Positions 9,750 to 24,323 of a stretch of DNA of 24,323 nucleotides are shown here, piece after piece. The notes beneath the pieces are model-generated. The model did not search any database. It worked only from the letters and a program-made list of their open reading frames with translations, and had not been told where the DNA came from. This stretch comes from a virus. The translations under genes were made by a program, and so were the position numbers. Position 1 is the stretch's first letter. Each line of letters opens with the position of its first letter. Where the stretch lies: positions 1-24,323 of IMG/VR virus record IMGVR_UViG_3300042875_000003; one strand, written 5' to 3'.

Positions 9750-9983
9750 ATGAAAGCACCGCAAAAATCTCTTAAAGACTGGACGGACCAAGAATGGAGG
9801 ACAAAAAGTGGTAAAAAATCTTCTGAAACAGGTGAGCGATACCTTCCTAAAGCTGCAATTAAAAGCCTCAGCCCTGCTGAGTACGCTGCTACAACGCGTG
9901 CGAAACGCGCTGGCAAAAAAGCCGGGAAACAATTCGTAGCACAGCCCAAGACCATCGCAAAGAAAACAGCAGGGTTTAGATAA
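9750..9983 (+). CDS. Small basic conserved phage protein (WTDQEWRTKSG type)
   Basis: ATG 9750, with AAGGA about 5 bases upstream, is preferred to the in-frame GTG at 9729, which overlaps the preceding gene. The 77-residue product has WTDQEWRTKSGKKSSETGER, then YLPKAAIKSLSPAEYAATTR, then a Lys-rich tail. This arrangement is familiar from short proteins in phages and large DNA viruses, often beside the KPGQWSARK type seen here immediately upstream. The pairing of the two suggests a linked role. It is strongly basic, with no Cys or membrane segment. The last base overlaps the start of the connector gene. Confidence 0.75.
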   Translation: MKAPQKSLKDWTDQEWRTKSGKKSSETGERYLPKAAIKSLSPAEYAATTRAKRAGKKAGKQFVAQPKTIAKKTAGFR

Positions 9984-10681
9984 TGGCAACATCCGGCGTA
10001 GCAAACTTCAACCTCGATCTTGCAGAAGTCGTCGAGGAGGCGTTTGAACGCGCCGGCGGTGAGTTGCGCACCGGCTACGACCTGCGCACAGCTCGTCGAT
10101 CGCTGAATCTGATGTTCGCCGACTGGGCAAACCGTGGTTTAAACATGTTCACCTATGAGCAGGGAACACAGGTTCTGACCCCCGGGGTGGCCACCTACGT
10201 CCTGCCAACCGACACCGTGGACCTGCTGGAGCATGTAATCCGTACCGGCGCAGGCAACGTTTCAACTCAGGCTGACCTGACCATCACCCGCATCAGCGTC
10301 TCAACCTACGCCACGATCCCAAACAAGCTCCAGCAAGCTCGTCCCATCCAGATTTTCATTGAGCGTTTAAACACTCCTCAGTTCACCGTCTGGCCAGTTC
10401 CAGACGACAGTCAGACCTACCAGCTCGTGTACTACCGCCTTCGTCGCATCCAGAATGCCGGAGACGGCGTGAACACGATGGACATGCCATTCCGCTTCTT
10501 GCCCTGCATGGTAGCCGGCTTGGCCTACCACTTGGCCCTGAAGATACCCAGCGGCGCTGAGCGCTTGCCCATCCTCAAGCAGCAGTACGACGAAGCTTGG
10601 GCATTGGCATCTGAAGAGGACCGTGAAAAGGCCGCTGTACGCTTTGTGCCGCGCCGTCAGTACCTCGGAAGCGGGACGTAA
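9983..10681 (+). CDS. Head-tail connector protein (gp4/adaptor-like)
   Basis: A 232-residue protein. The N-terminal part is helical (EVVEEAFERAGGELRTGYDL, then RTARRSLNLMFADWANRGLN). A beta region with VLTPGVATYVLPTDTVDLLE and TVWPVPDDSQTYQLVYYRLR follows. A C-terminal helix contains AERLPILKQQYDEAWALASE. Helix pair, beta region and C-terminal helix make the layout of podoviral adaptor proteins (P22 gp4, T7 gp11 and SU10 types) that dock under the portal ring after packaging. Its position after the head modules and before the zinc-ribbon gene fits. A second adaptor-like gene lies at 11458, so each may form a separate ring. The stop overlaps the next start (TAATG). Confidence 0.78.
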   Translation: MATSGVANFNLDLAEVVEEAFERAGGELRTGYDLRTARRSLNLMFADWANRGLNMFTYEQGTQVLTPGVATYVLPTDTVDLLEHVIRTGAGNVSTQADLTITRISVSTYATIPNKLQQARPIQIFIERLNTPQFTVWPVPDDSQTYQLVYYRLRRIQNAGDGVNTMDMPFRFLPCMVAGLAYHLALKIPSGAERLPILKQQYDEAWALASEEDREKAAVRFVPRRQYLGSGT

Positions 10682-11457: not shown

Positions 11458-12165
11458 ATGAACTACGCGCAGCTGTCTGCCAACATCCAAGCATACTTGG
11501 AGAACACGTTCCCCGACACTTTGACGTGGGACGGCCAGACTGTCACGTCCGAAGACCAGATCGACACGTTCATCAAGCAGGCTGAGCAGCGTATTTTCAA
11601 CACGGTCCAGTTCCCCTCGATTCGCAAGAACGTGACGGGCACGCTGACGGCCAACAACAAGTACCTGTCCTCGCCCTCCGACTTCTTGTCGGTGTATTCG
11701 ATGGCAGTGATTGATGCCACCGGGCGCTACGAGTACCTGCTCAACAAGGATGTAAACTTCATCCGTCAGGCGTACCCCAACCCCACGAGCACCGGCATTC
11801 CTCAGTATTACGCTCTGTTTGGCCCGACCACGACCAACAACAACCCGCCCGTCATCACCAATGAGCTGAGTTTCATGGTGGGACCTACGCCCGATGCGGC
11901 GTACTCGGTTGAGCTGCACTACTTCTTCATGCCGACTTCGATCGTCGATGCCGGCACGACTTGGCTGGGCGACAACTTTGACACCGTGCTGCTGTACGGC
12001 TCACTGGTAGAGGCTGCGATCTTCATGAAAATTGATGCACAGACCGAAGGTATTGTGCTCGACACCAAGTACAAGGAAGCATTGGCTTTGGCCAAACGCT
12101 TGGGCGACGGCTTGGAGCGTCAAGACGCTTACCGTAGCGGCCAATACAGACAGGCAGTCACATGA
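11458..12165 (+). CDS. Second connector/adaptor protein (SU10-adaptor-like)
   Basis: A 235-residue protein with GAGGAC upstream. The N-terminus is helical (MNYAQLSANIQAYLENTF, then EDQIDTFIKQAEQRIFNTVQ). A beta region (KNVTGTLTANNKYLSSPSDF) and a middle part with SFMVGPTPDAAYSVELHYFF follow. A C-terminal helical segment carries ALALAKRLGDGLERQDAYRS. This is the standard pattern of the SU10/T7-type adaptor family that bridges portal and nozzle. The similar layout in the gene at 9983 suggests ancient duplication or two stacked rings. The stop overlaps the next start as ATGA. The family call is from pattern memory. Confidence 0.8.
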   Translation: MNYAQLSANIQAYLENTFPDTLTWDGQTVTSEDQIDTFIKQAEQRIFNTVQFPSIRKNVTGTLTANNKYLSSPSDFLSVYSMAVIDATGRYEYLLNKDVNFIRQAYPNPTSTGIPQYYALFGPTTTNNNPPVITNELSFMVGPTPDAAYSVELHYFFMPTSIVDAGTTWLGDNFDTVLLYGSLVEAAIFMKIDAQTEGIVLDTKYKEALALAKRLGDGLERQDAYRSGQYRQAVT

Positions 12166-12566
12166 TCACCCAAACCGTAACCACATCGTTCAAGGCCGAC
12201 CTGCTTAAAGCGGTTCACGACTTCAACACCGACACGTTTAAACTGGCCCTGTACTTGGCCACGGCCGATCTTGACGCAAACACCATCGTTTACACAACCA
12301 CCGGGGAAACCTCTGGCACTGGCTATGTGGCTGGTGGCAACACCCTGACCGGTGTGTCGGTCAATGATGCCGGTTTCGTGACGTTCACCAACACCTCTTG
12401 GAACCCTGCTGCGTTCACCGCACGGGGTGCCCTCATCTACAATAGCACCAAGTCGAACAAGGCTGTGGCGGTTTTGGACTTTGGTTCCGACAAGACCGCA
12501 ACCAACACGTTTCTGGTGCAAATGCCAGCCAACACAGCGACCAGTGCGCTGATCCGATTTTCCTGA
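12162..12566 (+). CDS. Beta-rich tail or appendage protein
   Basis: A 134-residue protein coupled to the connector by an ATGA overlap. It is predicted to be a single beta-sandwich: FKLALYLATADLDANT, then YTTTGETSGTGYVAGGNTL, VSVNDAGFVTFTNTSW and ARGALIYNSTKSNKAVAVLD. This pattern (short helix, then strands ending with a GALIYN-type segment) is widespread in podovirus and siphovirus gene sets as I remember it, usually beside the next gene type. The role is unknown; it may attach fibres or decorate the neck. Confidence 0.72.
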   Translation: MITQTVTTSFKADLLKAVHDFNTDTFKLALYLATADLDANTIVYTTTGETSGTGYVAGGNTLTGVSVNDAGFVTFTNTSWNPAAFTARGALIYNSTKSNKAVAVLDFGSDKTATNTFLVQMPANTATSALIRFS

Positions 12567-12578
12567 TAGGAGCTTGAA

Positions 12579-13100
12579 ATGAGCATTGAAAAAGTCAAAG
12601 CTGGTGGCGTGTTCACCGTGCAGTGTTTCGACAGCGAGGGCAACCTCAAGTGGGAAGAGAAGAAGCACAACCTCGTGGTCAACGTCGGCCTGCAGTTCAT
12701 GAACGACAAGTTCTTCAAGGGCTCCTCGTATACCGCTGCTTGGTACTTTGGCCTGTACGGCGCTGCTGCTTCGAACAACCCCGCTGCTGGCGACACCATG
12801 GCCTCCCACGCCGGCTGGACGGAAGTCACAGCCTACTCGGAAGCCACCCGCCCCGCAGCCACATTCGGCACCCCCACCACGGCTGATCCATCGGTGATCA
12901 GCAACTCGTCTTCTGTGGCTGTGTTCAGCATCAACGGCACCACGACCGTTGGCGGCGCGTTCCTCACCACGGACAACACCAAGGGTGGCACTTCCGGCAC
13001 GCTGTTCTCGGCTTCGGACTTCCAATCCCCCGGCGATCGCTCTGTGGTCTCTGGTGACGTGATCAACCTCACGTACCAATTCAGTCTCGACGCGGCGTAA
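12579..13100 (+). CDS. Beta-rich virion protein (GGVFTVQCFDSEG type)
   Basis: A 173-residue protein after TAGGAG with 8-base spacing. The N-terminal block KAGGVFTVQCFDSEGNLKWE, then HNLVVNVGLQFMNDKFF, is strongly conserved in phages I remember. A Ser/Thr/Ala-rich beta part (about 60-130) follows, and the protein ends with SGDVINLTYQFSLDA. It is probably a surface appendage or neck protein. The next gene starts at a GTG two bases after the stop. No enzyme motif is visible. Confidence 0.73.
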   Translation: MSIEKVKAGGVFTVQCFDSEGNLKWEEKKHNLVVNVGLQFMNDKFFKGSSYTAAWYFGLYGAAASNNPAAGDTMASHAGWTEVTAYSEATRPAATFGTPTTADPSVISNSSSVAVFSINGTTTVGGAFLTTDNTKGGTSGTLFSASDFQSPGDRSVVSGDVINLTYQFSLDAA

Positions 13101-13101
13101 T

Positions 13102-14010
13102 GTGTTTGCTGGAGCCCCGTTTGCAACTGCACCGTTCTCTGCCCTAAGCGGGAACGTCTTCGTCGCTGTCGTAAACGAGAGCGCGAGCGGGGCTGATTTA
13201 GTTTCTTCGCTGGCTGCATTTGCGGCCTTGACTGCTGAGTCTGCAACAGGCACCGACGAAGTTTCCACCCGTGTGGTGGTCATCTCTCTGGTCACAGAGG
13301 CGGCGGTTGGCCAAGATCAAGTCAGCACCAACACATCGGTGCGCTCGGCGGTGTTCGAGTTGGCCAGTGGGCTGGATGCTTTCATTGGCAACGTAGCGTT
13401 TAGCGCTGCCATCCAAGATGGGGCAACGGGCCAAGACCAAGTCAGCAGCACCCCTGAGTACGGCGTCACAGTCCTTGAGACCGCCTCTGGCCAAGAGGTT
13501 GCGAGTGCGCTGGTCAGCCTTGTGTCTCTGGTCTCCGAATCGGCCGTAGCCGAGGACATCATCAGTGCGCTCAAGGCGCAGATGGTCACGATCTTTGAGG
13601 GTGCTACGGGCGCTGATCAGGTTGTGGGTAACGTCATTGTGTTGGCCAACGTGGTTGAGGCAAGCACCGGCTCCGAGACGGTTTCTGCACGTATTAACTT
13701 TGCTGCTCTGGTCGCAGAAGCTGCACAGGGCCAAGACACCGTTTCGGCGCGCACGCTCTTCAAGGTGATCATCACTGAACTGGGCATCGCCGAGGACAGC
13801 GTTCAAGCTGCATTCTTATGGAACATCATCAATGACAGCCAGACGGTAGCGTGGCAAAATATCAGCAGTGAGACAACGCCGAGCTGGACGGCCATTTCCT
13901 CGGATGCCGATGGCGCTTGGCAAACCATTCAAAGTTCGTCTGGTGTCGTTTGGCAGAACATCGGCACGGCCGCAGAGCCAAACTGGCAAGTCATCAAAAC
14001 ACAGCCGTAA
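13102..14010 (+). CDS. Appendage protein of eleven 20-residue repeats
   Basis: Translation from GTG 13102 begins MFAGAPFATAPFSAL; an ATG at 13100 is in another frame and closes after 14 residues. Residues 26-245 are eleven consecutive repeats, each exactly 20 residues. The consensus is E-x-A-x-G-x-D-x-V-S followed by ten mostly hydrophobic positions. No repeat has an insertion or deletion, which points to a regular beta-solenoid or a stacked beta-fold. After that come five 11-residue repeats centred on Trp (AWQNI, SWTAI, AWQTI, VWQNI, NWQVI). There is no membrane segment. A fibre shaft with a C-terminal binding part is the likely role. No clear ribosome site is present, so coupling to the upstream stop is probable. 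Confidence 0.8.
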   Translation: MFAGAPFATAPFSALSGNVFVAVVNESASGADLVSSLAAFAALTAESATGTDEVSTRVVVISLVTEAAVGQDQVSTNTSVRSAVFELASGLDAFIGNVAFSAAIQDGATGQDQVSSTPEYGVTVLETASGQEVASALVSLVSLVSESAVAEDIISALKAQMVTIFEGATGADQVVGNVIVLANVVEASTGSETVSARINFAALVAEAAQGQDTVSARTLFKVIITELGIAEDSVQAAFLWNIINDSQTVAWQNISSETTPSWTAISSDADGAWQTIQSSSGVVWQNIGTAAEPNWQVIKTQP

Positions 14011-14019
14011 GGAACGCAC

Positions 14020-14478
14020 ATGGCCTTTGTTGTCAAGGATCGAGTCAAGGTCACAACGACCACCACCGGGACGGGCACGCTCACACTCGGCGCTGCTGCT
14101 GTGGGCTTTCAGTCGTTCGCCGTTATTGGCGACGGGAACACCACCTACTACGCAATTGTTGATTCCGCCTTTGGTGCGTGGGAAGTTGGCGTCGGTGTTT
14201 ACACATCCAGCGGCACAACCCTGTCGCGTGACACAGTGCTTGAGTCATCGAACGCAGGAGCACTGGTGGACTTTGCTGCGGGCTCCAAGGACGTGTTCGT
14301 GACCTACCCGGCAGAGCGTGCTGTGGTAGGCGGCATGGGCTACATCGAGAACGCGGCCACGGTGACTCAAAGCTCGACGATCAACGAGGGGCACAACGCC
14401 ATCTCAGCCGGTCCTGTGACAATCGCAAGTGGTGTCAGTATTACCGTGCCATCGGGCAGTCGGTACGTTGTGGTTTAA
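14020..14478 (+). CDS. Tail/appendage protein (VKDRVKxTTTTTGTGT type)
   Basis: A 152-residue beta-rich protein with TAAGGA upstream. Residues 5-100 hold the widespread block VKDRVKVTTTTTGTGTLTLG, then GFQSFAVIGDGNTTYYAIVD, TTLSRDTVLESSNAG and DVFVTYPAERAVV. The last part (about 120-152, GPVTIASGVSITVPSGSRYV) is a short beta-helical or clip motif that I recall at the end of many phage fibre proteins. It is likely a fibre or fibre-adaptor piece. Four further beta-rich appendage genes follow without a break. Confidence 0.75.
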   Translation: MAFVVKDRVKVTTTTTGTGTLTLGAAAVGFQSFAVIGDGNTTYYAIVDSAFGAWEVGVGVYTSSGTTLSRDTVLESSNAGALVDFAAGSKDVFVTYPAERAVVGGMGYIENAATVTQSSTINEGHNAISAGPVTIASGVSITVPSGSRYVVV

Positions 14479-14488
14479 GGGGTAAGAC

Positions 14489-15028
14489 ATGGCAATCGTT
14501 TTAGATGGAACCTCGGGCATCACGGCCCCCAACGCCACTGTTTCAGGAACTGTACAGGGTTCTCCCGTGCGTGGCGGCTTGGTGTCTGGTACTGCTGTCG
14601 CATCGACCAGCGGCACTTCAATTGACTTCACTGGCATCCCATCGTGGGCCAAGCGAATCACGGTGATGTTTAGCTTGGTGAGTACAAACGGGACAAGCGG
14701 ACTACTCGTGCAAATTGGTGATTCTGGCGGGGTTGAAACAACCGGGTATGCAAGTGTTACAGACGTTACTGGCGTGGTTGTGACTACGGGGTATTCAATC
14801 TACAGCACCGCCGCTGCACGGATTACAAGCGGCGCTGTTGCATTGTTAAATGTTTCAGGAAACACATGGGTTGCAAGCGGGCAGTTCGTCCAAACGGACA
14901 GTGGTTTCCTCCCGTCAGTGGGTGGAAATAAAACCCTCTCCGACACACTGACCCAAGTCCGCATCACCACGGTCAACGGCACAGACACCTTCGACGCTGG
15001 CACGATCAACATCATGTACGAGGGCTGA
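14489..15028 (+). CDS. Tail fibre component
   Basis: This 179-residue protein starts MAIVLDGTSGITAPNATVSG, a fibre N-terminal signature found in many phages. The middle (about 45-165) is a beta-sandwich-like domain: GTSIDFTGIPSWAKRITVMF, then a Gly/Thr-rich part and LTQVRITTVNGTDTFDAGTI. It ends in a short NIMYEG. No enzyme motif is visible. Its place among fibre genes suggests a spike or fibre segment that presents a receptor-binding or structural beta domain. Confidence 0.75.
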   Translation: MAIVLDGTSGITAPNATVSGTVQGSPVRGGLVSGTAVASTSGTSIDFTGIPSWAKRITVMFSLVSTNGTSGLLVQIGDSGGVETTGYASVTDVTGVVVTTGYSIYSTAAARITSGAVALLNVSGNTWVASGQFVQTDSGFLPSVGGNKTLSDTLTQVRITTVNGTDTFDAGTINIMYEG

Positions 15029-15030
15029 AC

Positions 15031-15459
15031 ATGACCAAAGTTGCAATCATAGGAAACGCGAGCGGAACAGGTACTCTGACGCTCACGTCTCCGGATACAG
15101 ATACCGACCGGACGCTGAACATCCCAGACAACTCTGGCACGATTGGCTTTGCTGGTGTCCCGCGTTCTGGTTTGGCCAAAACAGGCTCTTACACCTTGTT
15201 GGTAACTGATGTTGGTCAGCTCATTGAGGTCGGCTCCGGTGGCTCGATTACTATCCCTGACGCAACATTTGCGACAGGCGATATTGTCTCGATATTTAAT
15301 AACACGACCGGCAGCATCACCATCACTTGCTCAATCACCACAGCCTACATCGCCGGGGTTGATGCAGACGATGCTTCGGTGTCTTTGCTGACTCGTGGTG
15401 TCTGCTCGGTGTTGTTTGTCAGTGGCACGGTTTGCGTTATTACGGGGAACGTCGTATGA
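15031..15459 (+). CDS. Tail fibre component with TDVGQ beta module
   Basis: A 142-residue protein. The N-terminal 45 residues carry TLTLTSPDTDTDRTLNIPDN and SGTIGF, a short beta motif also present at the start of the gene at 16675. Residues 50-142 form a module (GSYTLLVTDVGQLIEV, IPDATFATGDIVSIFNN, then SLLTRGVCSVLFVSG and VITG). It is clearly related to the C-terminal part of the protein at 17439. Both copies are followed directly by a glycine-rich fibre gene, so the pair looks duplicated. Stop and next start overlap (ATGA). Confidence 0.72.
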   Translation: MTKVAIIGNASGTGTLTLTSPDTDTDRTLNIPDNSGTIGFAGVPRSGLAKTGSYTLLVTDVGQLIEVGSGGSITIPDATFATGDIVSIFNNTTGSITITCSITTAYIAGVDADDASVSLLTRGVCSVLFVSGTVCVITGNVV

Positions 15460-16313
15460 CGGGAGTAGTTGCGCTTTTTGCGTCTTCGAAAAAGCGTTTT
15501 ATTACCGCAACTGGCGGTACTGTTACTACGTATTTGGCAGGCGGAGTTACCTATCAAGTTCACACATTCACCGGATCGGGCACTTTTACGGTTCTTGAAA
15601 CTGGGGGCGTAGAAAACACCCTTGAATACTTGGTTGTTGCAGGCGGCGGTGGCGGTGGCGGAAGTGGCGGTGGCGGCGGCGGGGCTGGCGGCATGTTAAC
15701 TGGAACAACATCAGTAACCCTCGGAGATTACACGGTTGTTGTTGGCGCTGGAGGAGCGGTAGCCACCAGAGGAGATACCTCTTCTGCCTTTAGTATTGCA
15801 CCCACTGGCGGCGGCTTGGGTAGCGGCACGGGCAACGGGGGGAGTGGTGGCTCCGGTGGCGGCGGTTACGGCAACACGAACGGAACTGGCGGTGCAGGCA
15901 TCTCTGGACAAGGGCGTAACGGTGGCAACGGCAGGGTTGTATCTGGCGATTTTCTTAGTGGCGGTGGTGGCGGCGGCGCAGGCGCTGTTGGTGGTAACGC
16001 CGGTACAGGCGGTGGTGGCGCTGGCGGGGCTGGCCTTTCAAACTCACTTCGCACTGGCACTGGTGAGTTTTATGCTGGCGGCGGTGGCGGCTCCGGTGGT
16101 TCGGCGTTTAGTTTGCCCTCTACGGACCCCGGAGGTGTTGGGGGGAATGGTGGAGGTGGTCGTGGCGGAGGATCGCAGGGTGTGTCCGTTGCTGGAACGG
16201 CGAACACTGGCGGCGGCGGTGGTGGTATGAGCTACAACCCAAACAGCCCCACCCCAAGAGATGCAAAGCCCGGCGGCTCTGGCATCGTTGTCCTTCGATA
16301 TAGGATTGCGTAA
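15456..16313 (+). CDS. Glycine-rich tail fibre tip protein
   Basis: ATG 15456, overlapping the previous stop (ATGA), is preferred to the in-frame TTG at 15432. The 285-residue product has a beta leader (about 15-62, TATGGTVTTYLAGGVTYQVH then TGSGTFTVLE). About 200 residues dominated by Gly follow, with GGGG runs separated by short strands (e.g. GDYTVVVGAGG), and the end is GSGIVVLRYRIA. This matches the Gly-rich fibre or adhesin type, whose polyglycine-II helices form a sandwich and whose loops bind receptors (e.g. S16-type gp38, from memory). Two further copies lie in the gene at 18266. Host recognition is the likely role. Confidence 0.8.
   Translation: MTGVVALFASSKKRFITATGGTVTTYLAGGVTYQVHTFTGSGTFTVLETGGVENTLEYLVVAGGGGGGGSGGGGGGAGGMLTGTTSVTLGDYTVVVGAGGAVATRGDTSSAFSIAPTGGGLGSGTGNGGSGGSGGGGYGNTNGTGGAGISGQGRNGGNGRVVSGDFLSGGGGGGAGAVGGNAGTGGGGAGGAGLSNSLRTGTGEFYAGGGGGSGGSAFSLPSTDPGGVGGNGGGGRGGGSQGVSVAGTANTGGGGGGMSYNPNSPTPRDAKPGGSGIVVLRYRIA
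15645..15692 (+). repeat. GGN-rich coding microsatellite
   Basis: A dense run of ggc/ggt/gga triplets encodes GGGGGGGSGGGGGGAGG at the start of the glycine-rich domain. Similar runs recur throughout 15645-16290 and 18460-19860. Length changes by whole codons would keep the frame and alter the polyglycine helices. Confidence 0.6.
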
Positions 16314-16675
16314 TGGCACATTTTGCACAGATCAACGAACAAGGCGCGGTGCTGACAGTCATCGTGGTCAAAAACAGCGACATCTTGGATGAGAATGGCC
16401 AAGAGTCAGAAGCCATTGGCAAGCAGTTTTGCACAAGCCTGCTCGGCGGCGAGTGGGTGCAGACCAGCTACAACGGCAATATGCGCAAGCAGTACGCCAG
16501 CATCGGCGGCAGCTACGATGTAGCAAACGATGTGTTCATTGCGCCCAAGCCATACGCAAGCTGGGCACTAGACGAGAACTTTGACTGGCAAGCGCCAGTG
16601 CCTTCACCCGGCGGCGACTACGTCTGGGACGAGGATAATCAGCAGTGGGTGCAAGTGCCCACGGAGGAACCATAA
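16313..16675 (+). CDS. Tail fibre-associated protein, possible assembly factor
   Basis: A 120-residue protein starting at a TAATG overlap. It has AHFAQINEQGAVLTVIVVKN, then a QFCTSLLGGEWVQTSYNGNM block, then a Trp/Pro-rich end (YASWALDENFDWQAPVP and YVWDEDNQQWVQVP). This pattern is common in phages of cyanobacteria and aquatic proteobacteria as I remember it, always near fibre genes. The WxxDE...W repeat in the last third resembles that of fibre-assembly or fibre-attached proteins, but the role is not proven. It is directly followed (TAATG) by the C1q-like gene. Confidence 0.7.
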   Translation: MAHFAQINEQGAVLTVIVVKNSDILDENGQESEAIGKQFCTSLLGGEWVQTSYNGNMRKQYASIGGSYDVANDVFIAPKPYASWALDENFDWQAPVPSPGGDYVWDEDNQQWVQVPTEEP

Positions 16676-17232
16676 TGGCAAACGGAACATTGGCTGCAAG
16701 CCAGATTGAGATGCTGTCCCAAAGCGGGACGGGTATCACGACCGTCGTCCCCCCAGCGACCAACATCGACCGGACACTGACGCTGCCTGATGTCACTGGC
16801 ACGCTCTCGACCAACGGCCCTGCATTCTTTGCAAACGGTGCAACCAGCGCATCACTGACTTCTGGCACCAACACCAAGGTCGCCGCATTTTCGTCCGAGG
16901 TGTTTGACACCAACAGCAACTTCGACACAGCCACCAGCCGCTTCACACCAACGGTTGAAGGGTACTACCAAATCTCGGCGTCTGTTCGCTCGGATACATC
17001 GTTGACGGTTCTTCACGCAAGCGTCTACAAAAACGCAACAATTTACGCTGCTGGTAGCTTTACAAGCCTTTCGGCGGGAGTGACAAACAAGGCATCCACC
17101 GTTTCCGCACTTGTTTATTTGAACGGGTCTACCGACTACGTTGAGATTTACGCCTTTGTGTCTGGTACCGCAACAACGAGCACCTCTGCTGGTCAGACTT
17201 GGTTTTCTGGTGTTTTGGTAAGGGGAGCATGA
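16675..17232 (+). CDS. Tail fibre protein with C1q-like jelly-roll domain (candidate)
   Basis: ATG 16675 (TAATG overlap) gives 185 residues; an upstream in-frame start at 16645 would overlap the previous gene by 31 bases. The N-terminus (about 1-47) is ANGTLAASQIEMLSQSGTG, then NIDRTLTLPDVTGTLS, a motif shared with the gene at 15031. Residues 48-184 look like a C1q/TNF-like jelly roll: FFANGATSASLTSGTNTKVA, then VFDTNSNFDTATSRFTPTV, EGYYQISASV, and a final TWFSGVLV strand. Such trimeric domains occur in phage fibres as receptor-binding tips. The assignment is from the GYYxxSASV-type strand and surrounding spacing. Confidence 0.72.
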   Translation: MANGTLAASQIEMLSQSGTGITTVVPPATNIDRTLTLPDVTGTLSTNGPAFFANGATSASLTSGTNTKVAAFSSEVFDTNSNFDTATSRFTPTVEGYYQISASVRSDTSLTVLHASVYKNATIYAAGSFTSLSAGVTNKASTVSALVYLNGSTDYVEIYAFVSGTATTSTSAGQTWFSGVLVRGA

Positions 17233-17435
17233 TGACACTCTACGAACAGATTATGGCAATCTACCCCGAGTTGACGATTGACGACTTTATGAGCGTCATT
17301 GCGTTGCAGAACGATGTTGATGGTCGCGGTGACTACATTGCCAAATGGGAGCACCCCGCCTACCCACGTCCGACTGAGGAGCAACTGCTTCCCGCAGAAG
17401 ACCAAATCGGGCAAAATACACCCATTCAGGAGTAA
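17232..17435 (+). CDS. Small XkdW-like phage protein
   Basis: GGAG at 17224-17227 better suits ATG 17232 than ATG 17229, which overlaps the previous stop. The 67-residue product has TLYEQIMAIYPELTIDDFMS, then VIALQNDVDGRGDYIAKWE and a Pro/Gln-rich end. The LQNDxDGxGDYIAKWEHP block resembles XkdW-type and related short tail-region proteins as I remember them. In this region a fibre attachment or assembly role is likely, but unproven. Confidence 0.7.
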   Translation: MTLYEQIMAIYPELTIDDFMSVIALQNDVDGRGDYIAKWEHPAYPRPTEEQLLPAEDQIGQNTPIQE

Positions 17436-17438
17436 CCG

Positions 17439-18266
17439 ATGCCATCAACCTTTTCACCAAATTTACGGATCGAGCTGATCGGCAACGGCGACCAAGCCGG
17501 CACTTGGGGCTCGACCACCAACACCAACCTCGGCACGCTCATCGAAGACGCAATCTCGGGCTACGAGACGGTGTCGGTGACCACGGCCAACCAAGCCTTT
17601 GTCTACGCCGACGGCGCATCGGATCAGGCACGAAACGCCATGATTGCACTGTCTACTACGACCGGTGCCAACTTCAGCGTTTACGCGCCTCCTAGCCCCA
17701 AGCAGTACGTCATCAACAACACCAGTGCGTTCACTGCCACGATCTACAACTCCACGGTTGCAGGTAACACGACGGCTGCTGGTACGGGCGTAGCCATTGC
17801 TGCTGGCAAAAAGATGGTGGTGTTTAGCGATGGCACAAACTTCATCACAATCTACGCAGCTACGGCTGGCTTGGCGGATGAAGCCACTGCACTGACCACC
17901 ACGCTGCCAATCAACAAAGGCGGCACAAACGCCATCACAGCGGCGGCGGCCAGAACCAATCTGGGCGTTTACACGGTACCGCCTGTAAGCACCACGGGCG
18001 TATACACATTGTTGGCCACCGATGTTGGGCAGTCTGTCCAAGCTGATGCCAACGTCACGGTGCCTCCAGCGGTGTTCAGTGCTGGTGACGTAGTGGTGAT
18101 TTACAACAACTCGGCCGGCTCCATCTCAGTGCTGCGCGGCGCGGGTGTAACGATGTACTGGGTTGGTGGTGTAAACGGCGACCGAGCGTTGAGTGCTCGG
18201 GGTCTGGCCACGATACTCTGCGTGGCGTCCAACGTCTTTGTCATCACCGGTCAAGGTCTCGCATAA
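17439..18266 (+). CDS. Tail fibre protein, proximal type
   Basis: A 275-residue protein with CAGGAG upstream. It begins TFSPNLRIELIGNGDQAGTW and GSTTNTNLGTLIEDAISG, a start shared by many phage fibres that attach to the tail. A beta-rich shaft (about 45-145) follows. INKGGTNAITAAAARTNLG (about 158-176) is the well-known GGTxxxTAxxAxxNLG repeat-like motif of fibre shafts. Residues 185-275 hold a TDVGQ beta module homologous to that of the gene at 15031. It is joined by TAATG overlap to the double glycine-rich gene, so this gene may be the base and the next the tip of one fibre. Confidence 0.8.
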   Translation: MPSTFSPNLRIELIGNGDQAGTWGSTTNTNLGTLIEDAISGYETVSVTTANQAFVYADGASDQARNAMIALSTTTGANFSVYAPPSPKQYVINNTSAFTATIYNSTVAGNTTAAGTGVAIAAGKKMVVFSDGTNFITIYAATAGLADEATALTTTLPINKGGTNAITAAAARTNLGVYTVPPVSTTGVYTLLATDVGQSVQADANVTVPPAVFSAGDVVVIYNNSAGSISVLRGAGVTMYWVGGVNGDRALSARGLATILCVASNVFVITGQGLA

Positions 18267-19900
18267 TGAGCGGCGTCCTGTCTGTCCTTGCCGGGGCTAT
18301 TGGCCAAGGCTTTCGTCCCATGTCCGCCACGGGCGGCACGATCACGGACATTACAGTATCCGGCGTCCCTTACCGTGTTCACACATTTACTTCCGGGGGC
18401 ACGTTTACGGTCACGAGCTTGGGTGACTCTTCTGGAACCATTGAATACCTAGTGGTTGGCGCTGGTGGCGGAGGCGGCAACAAAGACGGCACCGGTCGCG
18501 GACTTGGCGGCGGCGGTGGCGGCGGTCAAGTGATTACTGGGAACAGTTTGGTTTCAGTAACAGGGTACAGTGTTGTGGTTGGCAGCGGTGGCGGTGTTGC
18601 AACCGCTGGAGCAGCTAGTTCCGCGTTTGGTGCTTCTGCTGCAGGAGGTAGCGGCGGCAGAACTCCAACTTCAGATGCTCCCGGCGGTTCTGGAGGCGCG
18701 AGTGGTTCAGGCAACTCCGGTGGAAGCGGGTCCACATGGACAGGTTCTGGTTTTACACACGGCTCAGGTGGCGGCGGCGGTGGCAATTCCGCAAACGGAA
18801 CTTCTTCTACCGGACGCCCCGGCGGCAATGGCGGTAACGGCTCTACGTCAACGATACAAACAGGATCGGCCATTTACTATGGCGGCGGCGGAGGCGGTGG
18901 CGAAGCACAAGACGCTGGTGGTGTTGGTGGAAATGGCGGCTTGGGCGGCGGCGGTTCAACTCAGATTAACGGCCCAAACAATCCGGGCACAGCCAACACG
19001 GGTGGCGGCGGTTCTGGTTCATCGTACGCATCAGGAAATGCAGGCTCTGGCGGCTCTGGCATTGTTGTGGTGCGGTATCCCCTTGTGCGTCTTGGCCTAA
19101 TTGCCACTGGTGGCACGACTACCACATACACCTCTGGCGGATTCCTTTACCAATCCCACACATTTACCTCCAGCAGCGACTTCAGCGTGGTTGAGCTGGG
19201 CTCCCTTGGCGGCGCGGTTGACTACCTTGTGGTTGCTGGTGGCGGTGGTGGCGGTGGTCGAGGGGGTGGTGGTGGTGCTGGCGGCATGCTCACAGGAGCT
19301 ACTACGGTCACGCCATTCACCTACCCGGTGGTCATTGGCTCCGGCGGGCTTGGCGCCATACAAGGCGTTCGAGACTCCGCAAACGGTGGTAACTCATCGG
19401 CCCTTAGCATCACAGCCACAGGCGGCGGTGGTGGCGGAAACTACAACGGGATTGCTGGTAAGGCTGGCGGTTCCGGTGGTGGCGGTGGCGGTGAAAACTC
19501 TAGCTCTGGCGGCGCAGGCGTCTCTGGCCAAGGCTTTAACGGCGGCGGAAACCCAAGTGGTAGCGCTTCCGGTGGTGGCGGCGGCGGCAAAGGTGCTGTT
19601 GGCGGTAACTCTGCCCTCGGCGGTAACGGCATTGCTGGTAACGGCGGTGCTGGTGCCGCTAACGCACTCCGTACTGGGTCAAACATCACATACGCAGGTG
19701 GCGGCGGCGGTGCAGGTATTGCAGGCGGAACTCTGGGCTCGGGTGGTGCTGGTGGCGGCGGCGCAGGCGGCAACCCCGGCGTAAGTGGTACAGCCAACAC
19801 GGGTGGTGGCGGCGGTTCTGGTGGATCGTCTGGCGGCGTCTGGTCCAATGCTGGTGACGGCGGCTCGGGTATCGTCGTAATTCGTTATCGTATTGCTTAA
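18266..19900 (+). CDS. Double glycine-rich tail fibre protein
   Basis: The 544-residue product is made of two copies of one module. The first (about 21-271) has ATGGTITDITVSGVPYRVHT, then EYLVVGAGGGG, a Gly-rich region and GSGIVVVRYP. The second (about 280-544) has ATGGTTTTYTSGGFLYQSHT, then DYLVVAGGGGGGGRGGG, a Gly-rich region and GSGIVVIRYRIA. Both match the 285-residue protein at 15456. Gly is by far the most common residue. The repeated strand-GGGG-strand pattern fits stacked polyglycine helices, with variable loops that could contact the host. Opposite-strand open frames here are Pro-rich mirrors of the GGN codons. Tandem duplication inside one gene is clear; receptor binding is inferred. 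Confidence 0.82.
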   Translation: MSGVLSVLAGAIGQGFRPMSATGGTITDITVSGVPYRVHTFTSGGTFTVTSLGDSSGTIEYLVVGAGGGGGNKDGTGRGLGGGGGGGQVITGNSLVSVTGYSVVVGSGGGVATAGAASSAFGASAAGGSGGRTPTSDAPGGSGGASGSGNSGGSGSTWTGSGFTHGSGGGGGGNSANGTSSTGRPGGNGGNGSTSTIQTGSAIYYGGGGGGGEAQDAGGVGGNGGLGGGGSTQINGPNNPGTANTGGGGSGSSYASGNAGSGGSGIVVVRYPLVRLGLIATGGTTTTYTSGGFLYQSHTFTSSSDFSVVELGSLGGAVDYLVVAGGGGGGGRGGGGGAGGMLTGATTVTPFTYPVVIGSGGLGAIQGVRDSANGGNSSALSITATGGGGGGNYNGIAGKAGGSGGGGGGENSSSGGAGVSGQGFNGGGNPSGSASGGGGGGKGAVGGNSALGGNGIAGNGGAGAANALRTGSNITYAGGGGGAGIAGGTLGSGGAGGGGAGGNPGVSGTANTGGGGGSGGSSGGVWSNAGDGGSGIVVIRYRIA

Positions 19901-22225: not shown

Positions 22226-24323
22226 ATGACTCTGAAAGCGCTCAAATTTCGACCCGGTGTGAATCGGGAGAACACGACCTTGACCAACGAGGGGACGTGG
22301 TTCGAGTCGGACAAGGTGCGCTTCAGGTCTGGCAGCCCCGAGAAGATCGGCGGCTGGGAAAAGGACTCCGGCACTCAGGCGTCTGGCCTTATGCCTCCAA
22401 CCGGTTCGTACTGGGGTGTGGCAAGGGCCCTGTGGAACTGGGCCAACCTGTCAGGCTACAACCTGCTGGCCGTGGGCACCAATCTGAAATACTACATCCA
22501 GAACACGGTTGGCGGTGCTTTTAACGACGTCACACCGTTGCGAGAAACCACCGCTGCCGGCGAGGCTACCTTCGCTGCCACCACTGGATCAAACATCATC
22601 ACGGTGACGGACACCGGGTCTGTTGTTCAGCAAGGCGACTTTGTGACCTTTAGTGGTGCCAAAACGCTCTCCGGCCGGCTCTCAACTGGAACAATTGCAG
22701 GTACATCCACTGGTAGCGCCACCTTCACAGCGGTAGCTCAAAGCTCAACATCTGGGGTCGGTTACGGGGCGCAGTTCACCATTACCTCTAATGGAGTTGG
22801 AGCCTATACGTTAGACGCCATTACAAACGCCGGCAATGCCTACGCAGTCTCAGACACCATTGTTATTGCCGGAGCCAGCTTGGGTGGATCAACTCCAGCC
22901 AATAACGCGACCATCACCGTTACAGCAGTCAACTCTGGAAACATTACGGCCGCTGTGCTCAACAAAGAGCATCAGGTGGCCACCGTTACTAGCTCGTCTG
23001 TTTACACCATTGTGGTCGGAGTCAATGCCACTGCAAACGACACGGGTAACGGCGGCTCATCTACCGTGGCCGAATACCAGATAAGCACCGGCTCCGATGT
23101 TTACACCGTGGGCGTGGGCTGGGGCGCAGGCGGCTGGGGTGGCATTACGCCCGGTTACTCAAACACCGGCTGGGGCGTGGCATCTTCTGCCATTGGTGTT
23201 GACGTTCAGCTCCGCACATGGAGCCAGTCAAACTGGGGTGAGGACTTGGTTCTCAATGATCGCGGTGGCCCCATCTACTACTGGAAGAACAACGCCAACC
23301 CCACCATCTTTGACCGTGCTGTGGTTCTTTCGCCAGCCAGCTCACCCCCATTTGAAACTGATGCGTACTGCCCAGAGGTGTGCAACTACGTGCTGGTGAC
23401 GGATCAGTCGCGCTTTGTGGTGGCCTACGGTGTAAACGATCCAGATGCCGCAGACCCCAACCAGCAAGACCCCATGCTGATCCGCTGGTCAGGACAAAAC
23501 GATTACGCCGTGTGGGACCCCATCGACGGCGATACCACTCAAGCAGGCTTCTTCCGCCTGACCCGTGGCTCTGAAATCATCATGGCCCAGCAGACCCGTC
23601 AAGAGGTGCTGGTGTTCACGGACGCTGCGGTCTACTCACAGCAGTATCAGGGTTTACCCTTTGTGTTCAACTTCCAGCTCTTGGCTGACAACACGTCGAT
23701 CGCCGGACCCAACGCCGTGGCAACGGCGCATGACGTGACCTACTGGATGGGCGTGGACAAGTTCTACGTCTACAACGGCCGGGTTCAGACCCTGCCCAGC
23801 ACGCTGCGCACCTACGTGTTCCAGAACATCAACCTAGACCAGCAGTACCAGATCACGGCAGGCATCAACGACGCATTCAGCGAGGTGTGGTGGTTCTACT
23901 GCTCGGCCAACTCCACCACTGTGGATCGCTATGTGGTGTACAACTACCTCGAGAACGTCTGGCACTACGGCACCATGGCCCGTACAGCTTGGATTGATGC
24001 ACCGCTTCGTCAGTTCCCTGTGGCTGCTGGCTACGGTGGGCAGGTCCTGTACCACGAGGTGGGCAACGATGACGGCTCGACCAACCCACCAGCGGCTATT
24101 GACTGCTTTATACAGTCGGCTGACTTCAACTTGGAGGATGGTGACTCGTTTGGTTACGTCTGGCGCATCATCCCTGACTTGACATTTGACGGCTCCAACG
24201 CTCCGTTTCCCACGGCGCAGTTCTCGATCAAACCACGTCAGTTCCCCGGTACGAACTACGGCACGGCCAACAACCCAGACGTGCAGAGCGCCAACAACTA
24301 CCTTGGCCAGCGAACATACAACG
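22226..24323 (+). CDS. Tail nozzle/stabilisation protein (3' end outside window)
   Basis: A frame opens at ATG 22226 after GAAGGA and stays open to the end (699 complete codons seen). The start (TLKALKFRPGVNRENTTLTN, then TWFESDKVRFRSGSPEKIGG) is familiar from gp10/nozzle-type proteins of podoviruses. The later part (about residue 320 onward) holds many Trp/Tyr/Asp strands such as IYYWKN, YVLVTDQSRFVVAY and VYSQQYQGLPF, like blades of a beta-propeller. Between about 112 and 285 there is a Thr/Ser/Ala/Gly-rich, Trp-free insert with fibre-like beta patterns, probably an extra surface domain. Nozzle proteins close the tail below the adaptor ring. The stop codon lies outside the window. Confidence 0.82.
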   Translation, partial: MTLKALKFRPGVNRENTTLTNEGTWFESDKVRFRSGSPEKIGGWEKDSGTQASGLMPPTGSYWGVARALWNWANLSGYNLLAVGTNLKYYIQNTVGGAFNDVTPLRETTAAGEATFAATTGSNIITVTDTGSVVQQGDFVTFSGAKTLSGRLSTGTIAGTSTGSATFTAVAQSSTSGVGYGAQFTITSNGVGAYTLDAITNAGNAYAVSDTIVIAGASLGGSTPANNATITVTAVNSGNITAAVLNKEHQVATVTSSSVYTIVVGVNATANDTGNGGSSTVAEYQISTGSDVYTVGVGWGAGGWGGITPGYSNTGWGVASSAIGVDVQLRTWSQSNWGEDLVLNDRGGPIYYWKNNANPTIFDRAVVLSPASSPPFETDAYCPEVCNYVLVTDQSRFVVAYGVNDPDAADPNQQDPMLIRWSGQNDYAVWDPIDGDTTQAGFFRLTRGSEIIMAQQTRQEVLVFTDAAVYSQQYQGLPFVFNFQLLADNTSIAGPNAVATAHDVTYWMGVDKFYVYNGRVQTLPSTLRTYVFQNINLDQQYQITAGINDAFSEVWWFYCSANSTTVDRYVVYNYLENVWHYGTMARTAWIDAPLRQFPVAAGYGGQVLYHEVGNDDGSTNPPAAIDCFIQSADFNLEDGDSFGYVWRIIPDLTFDGSNAPFPTAQFSIKPRQFPGTNYGTANNPDVQSANNYLGQRTYN

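Follow-up and report, generated by a model that had tools for sequence, protein, structure and literature searches.

The stretch of viral DNA analysed here (the window; 24,323 nt of IMG/VR record IMGVR_UViG_3300042875_000003) carries a gene for a protein made up largely of short tandem repeats, which lies among genes for virion proteins (Table 1). The portal, the major capsid protein and an M15 peptidase are also encoded in the window. The phrog_8123 protein matches KPP25 ORF007 at E 1.7e-13, and ORF007 is the chain named 'Structural protein' in PDB entries 26la and 44nx. Since both the phrog_8123 and the phrog_3287 proteins have matches to PDB structures, the repeat gene falls in the tail/fibre part of a genome resembling that of a short-tailed phage, and we infer that its product belongs to the virion tail/fibre apparatus. 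Two further observations concern the neighbouring genes. The genome has two separate proteins of the SU10_adaptor family (9983-10681 and 11458-12165), and two proteins of the fibre block are very rich in glycine (15432-16313 and 18266-19900), the second of them having two glycine-rich halves.

Table 1. Coordinates of the repeat gene, its parts and its neighbours in the window.
Feature	Position	Strand	Remarks
SU10_adaptor (Pfam) protein, SU10-type adaptor	11458..12165	+	
phrog_644 protein	12162..12566	+	Also directly upstream of the DSL-LC04 counterpart
phrog_8123 protein	12579..13100	+	Directly upstream of the repeat gene; homologue of KPP25 ORF007
Repeat protein ORF	13102..14010	+	GTG start, 302 aa, open; start in line with the ATG/GTG starts of 31 relatives
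Aromatic triad F2-x4-F7-x4-F12 (MFAGAPFATAPF), proposed dock	13105..13137	+	Triad in family N-termini
Eleven 20-residue units	13177..13836	+	aa 26-245; family consensus ESATGSDTVSALATFFASVS; two strands per unit predicted by AF2
C-terminal tail, six Trp at exact 11-residue spacing	13819..14007	+	First unit overlaps the last 20-mer
Tail-fibre-like block	14020..19900	+	phrog_34255/phrog_5342 matches, glycine-rich proteins
phrog_3287 virion structural protein	22238..24322	+	Open at the window end; phmmer match to PDB 9nwi_Y (six chains)

The first-pass annotation had divided residues 26-245 of the repeat protein into eleven units of exactly 20 residues, each opening on E or D and acidic again at column 7, and this division is confirmed: all 11 units have E/D in column 1 and D/E in column 7, with no indel, and the self-identity of the protein peaks at a lag of 20 residues (0.29, with 0.24 at lag 40), while the highest value in any of 2000 shuffles, over lags 5-44, was 0.19. 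Ahead of unit 1 there is a partial unit with the strand NVFVAVVN (aa 18-25). The mean identity between the units is 30% for protein and 42% for DNA, the best DNA pair reaching 58%; with units so diverged the array is old, and its exact length does not come from recent copying. In 282 orthologous unit pairs pN was ~0.09 and pS ~0.37, and the gene is thus under purifying selection; because of this difference, and because the antisense frames carry stops, the plus strand is the coding strand. Two long antisense ORFs are present on the minus strand, at 12129-13295 (388 aa) and 13198-13806 (202 aa). They are probably not genes, as every antisense frame over the repeat gene is interrupted by stops, both in the window and in each of the relatives tested.

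No relative of any strength was found for the protein in Pfam, PHROG or the PDB. Designed helical repeats in the PDB matched in sequence at E 0.003-0.2 but were rejected as matches of composition, and the label of phrog_38045 ('membrane protein'), matched at E 0.006, was not adopted as an annotation. Neither the whole protein nor the relative L089 matched a named phage by tblastn, a search in which the filtering of low-complexity sequence may conceal matches; scans of bacterial and archaeal genomes yielded no relative, and a literature search on the repeat itself found nothing relevant. A scan of IMG/VR with the protein itself returned 12 loci, and its C-terminal motif occurs at at least 550 loci (557 confirmed among the 600 pattern matches listed). 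The family is thus common in uncultured aquatic phages, in hundreds of viruses, and no Pfam or PHROG model describes its units. The window shows the features that mark this family, namely tandem E-x5-D 20-mers, the N-terminal triad, the Trp tail and a phrog_8123 gene upstream. In 104 of the 118 family loci, a set partly gathered by way of this neighbour, the phrog_8123 protein lies no more than 1.5 kb upstream. Its gene has at least 600 pattern matches in IMG/VR and would be a useful structural marker, though still labelled unknown. In the phrog_8123-bearing phages KPP25, F116, AP1, VS-ABTNL-3, MetMV and ctwe8250, the repeat protein is absent from the next genes.

When 124 distinct family proteins were segmented with a unit profile, 1352 of 1388 spacings between units were exactly 20 residues (1351 of 1392 without a penalty on other spacings). 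The length taken as strict in the first-pass annotation is therefore exact within this protein and somewhat relaxed in the family, where ~3% of spacings are 21-23 residues and one is 18. Where units are longer by one or two residues, the additional residues lie either in columns 8-15 or at the end of the unit, and none in columns 1-7. The view that the register is under structural selection is borne out, as 97% of ~1390 spacings are exact despite ~11.5 differences from the consensus per unit. An alternative is that the repeats form a low-complexity linker, for the most part disordered or extended, with a fixed length that stems from duplication rather than from a fold. A composition rich in Ser, Thr and Ala would suit such a linker, as would the near-identical units seen within two relatives (L060 and L048); we nonetheless consider it unlikely, because the length is kept at 30% unit identity, because ~17,400 differences from the consensus stand against ~40 off-length spacings in the family, and because pN is below pS.

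The number of units varies from 4 to 22 across the family, the lowest values including contig-end truncations. As the first-pass annotation had anticipated, this number shifts by whole repeats: unit-by-unit alignment gives four additional units in L063 relative to L056, four in L076 relative to L068, and a five-unit difference between L089 and L063. With this natural series of 4-22 units, the relation between repeat number and appendage length becomes testable.

The columns of the unit suggest how it may fold. Their information content alternates between odd and even positions, with 3.6 bits at E1, 1.6 at A3, 1.6 at G5, 3.4 at D7, 2.2 at F15 and 1.7 at V19. The odd columns (E1, A3, G/A5, D7, V9, A11, F15, A17, V19) are mostly the more informative ones, while the even columns are polar or variable and substitute faster between orthologues (0.177 vs 0.128, p 0.02; p 0.08 when E1 and D7 are left out). 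In a first full-length AF2 run on the monomer, with 32 full-length rows, two strands per unit were predicted in 11 of 11 units, at a pLDDT of 48.5. A second run on residues 21-180 of the window protein (eight units) gave a uniform model with two strands per unit, a pLDDT of 89.1 and a pTM of 0.82; its alignment consisted of 114 eight-unit family rows taken from sliding windows, which reinforce periodicity, and one model of five was above 80 pLDDT, with the other four at 61-77. The low pLDDT of the first run would fit the disordered linker discussed above, against which the confidence of the second argues. In both runs two strands were predicted for each unit, and a globular fold with non-equivalent repeats was not seen.

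We thus regard the 20-residue units as likely turns of a two-strand β-solenoid, in agreement with the one turn per repeat proposed in the first-pass annotation, the confident model and the alternating columns speaking for this fold and the weak first run and the lack of a PDB fold match at E<0.001 against it. For perfect repeats, AF2 is reported to yield solenoids that score confidently yet are unrealistic, stacked like charges being a warning sign, whereas for diverged repeat families different methods agreed (PMC11795689). The divergence of the repeats studied here eases this concern; the known bias, the stacking that E1 and D7 would show, the sliding-window alignment and the four models at 61-77 are the reasons why we grade the solenoid as likely only. 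Each 20-mer would then be one turn of a two-sided solenoid. One strand would span roughly positions 16-3 and the other roughly 7-13; the corner between them, E1-x-A-x-G-x-D7, would be tight and flanked by acidic residues, and the other corner, at 13-15, would be looser. Odd positions would point inward and even positions outward.

Phage fibres are commonly trimers, and the repeats might instead build a homotrimeric fibre shaft, either a triple β-spiral or a triple β-helix as in adenovirus and phage fibre shafts, in which a 20-mer would be one spiral repeat and the shaft about three times as long as the solenoid. We hold this to be possible, if rather doubtful. The gene does lie in a fibre gene block, and a fixed repeat whose hydrophobic columns alternate and whose turn is rich in G/A would be compatible with a spiral too. 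However, the deep-alignment run was already confident for the monomer, no PDB fibre shaft matched in sequence (the tail fibre 7qlr appeared only at E 7.4), and the fold matches include one phage tail fibre, 7y5s, a weak one.

Those fold matches come from Foldseek, which returned nothing from the PDB at E<=0.001. The best of the weak matches, all at E>0.1, are mostly β-solenoids, including CsgA and RTX proteins, together with 7y5s; in BFVD, phage proteins were matched with probabilities of 0.92-1.00, one of them labelled 'Curlin associated'. This label, and the presence of CsgA and FapC among the weak matches, bring up an extracellularly polymerising subunit, curli-like or otherwise of the amyloid type, for which there is a precedent in the curli-like gene cluster reported in pelagimyophages (PMC7029224). 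We believe this to be very unlikely, since PF07012 was matched neither in the window (E<=1) nor in 32 family members, with E. coli as a positive control, since E/D stands where curlin repeats have Q/N, and since the gene sits in a structural block beside a homologue of a virion protein.

Returning to the putative solenoid, both of its ends carry regularly spaced aromatic residues. The N-terminal triad, with spacings of 5 and 5, is found in 116 of 124 family proteins by a relaxed pattern; its strict form is found in 80 of 124, as against 2.9% of shuffles, and other members of the family have the forms GWGSGTWGEAGWG. By analogy, this triad may dock the protein, either onto the virion or onto a partner fibre: in the nozzle of phage SU10, three Trp residues of a loop form a pseudo-threefold star that grips the trimeric short tail fibre (PMC9509320). 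Both have three aromatic residues at near-regular spacing, but the spacing in SU10 is 8 and 10 rather than 5 and 5, and we take the likeness as analogy and not as homology. In seven relatives (L044, L048, L053, L054, L071, L075 and L090) the Trp tail contains an insert that carries a second triad (F/Y-x4-F-x4-F) and is followed by Trp units, as if a second dock had been spliced in.

For the C-terminal end, the first-pass annotation had described five 11-residue Trp repeats following the 20-mers. The spacing of 11 is exact, and there are six Trp residues (W240, 251, 262, 273, 284 and 295), making up five full 11-mers and an 8-residue end; the first overlaps the last 20-mer rather than following it. 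Across the family the spacing of the Trp units is exactly 11 residues (403 spacings). In the 110 complete tails, that is, after two contig-end truncations were taken out, the number of Trp is 2 in 5, 3 in 4, 4 in 69 and 6 in 32 tails; it is never 5, and it is even in 106 of 110. On a tree of the neighbouring gene, the Trp number changes at least 35 times and its parity 4 times, and this rarely changing even parity fits a tail that proceeds in 22-residue, two-strand steps. Pairs of relatives that differ by one Trp and involve L118 were discarded, contig-end truncation being the source of the difference. P/G/N/T are frequent at positions 9-11 of the tails, and the P/G there disfavour a helical tail.

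A counterpart of the repeat protein is found in phage DSL-LC04 from Dishui Lake (OR003939.1), where the hypothetical protein WJZ48131.1 (L176:1150-2280) combines a 22-residue VTGV repeat with four aromatic triads and a tail with four Trp. Like the window protein, it has N-terminal triads (here W-x4-W-x4-W) and a tail with 11-residue Trp spacing, and the gene order is as in the window, with phrog_644 upstream and fibre genes, an M15 peptidase, a holin and phrog_3287 downstream. Its middle, in contrast, is of the 22-residue V-T-G-V type, and no 20-residue unit scores. A scan with WJZ48131.1 gave 80 loci, with ~60 distinct IMG/VR proteins of the 22-residue type. Five Trp units are absent from this group as well as from the 20-residue family; an even number of Trp was rejected as a general rule, since 18 of 48 tails of the 22-residue group have three. 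The same two ends around different middle repeats suggest that the repeats are an exchangeable rod.

Based on this, we suggest that the protein is a short rod in the tail/fibre apparatus of a short-tailed, SU10-like phage, with solenoid turns as its body, the triad as a dock, the Trp tail as its end and a length set by the number of units; we put the probability of this reading at roughly 55%. The rise per turn of a β-solenoid is ~4.8 Å, and the window protein, with ~12 turns, would be 5-6 nm long. The Trp tail would carry the rod on in 22-residue, two-strand steps and then end or join it. Such a rod would, we infer, serve as a short spacer in the host-attachment apparatus. More tentatively, and with somewhat more doubt than belief, we propose a modular rod common to short-tailed phages of aquatic habitats, where the triad dock and the paired-Trp tail hold swappable solenoid cassettes, either of the 20-residue E/D or of the 22-residue VTGV type, with length changing by whole turns; this would be a natural, length-adjustable spacer that positions receptor-binding fibres. 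That the ends are conserved while the middles can be exchanged suggests a general plan for the attachment rods of phages, and also an easy rule for annotating them.

Several known proteins resemble parts of this architecture. Among Paenibacillus phages, tape-measure proteins also have W-x-x-I at 11-residue spacing (tblastn E ~4e-3), but as WNGIK-type repeats within a long, helical-looking protein, which sets them apart from the P/G/N/T-rich tails of our family; the likeness is probably convergent. The window protein is itself not a tape-measure protein, as it has 302 aa and only its Trp tail resembles such repeats. The repeats of CsgA (PF07012, Curlin_rpt) resemble the predicted units in having ~20 residues and two strands per turn, with weak Foldseek matches to 8c50 and 8enq; they differ in that our protein has no PF07012 match, has acidic columns rather than Q/N ladders and lies in another gene context. 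The calcium-binding β-solenoids, namely RTX proteins and the Marinomonas-type antifreeze domain (PDB 3p4g), likewise share the predicted two strands per turn and an acidic corner, with weak Foldseek matches; if the solenoid is right, one might guess that the E1/D7 corner binds a cation as theirs does. The units nevertheless are without the GGxGxD motif, and the RTX/haemolysin-type calcium-binding family was absent from all-Pfam scans of the protein (E<=1) and of 32 family members (0.01). Repeat-built appendage proteins of phages are already known, and the family described here is a widespread new one with a clean architecture.
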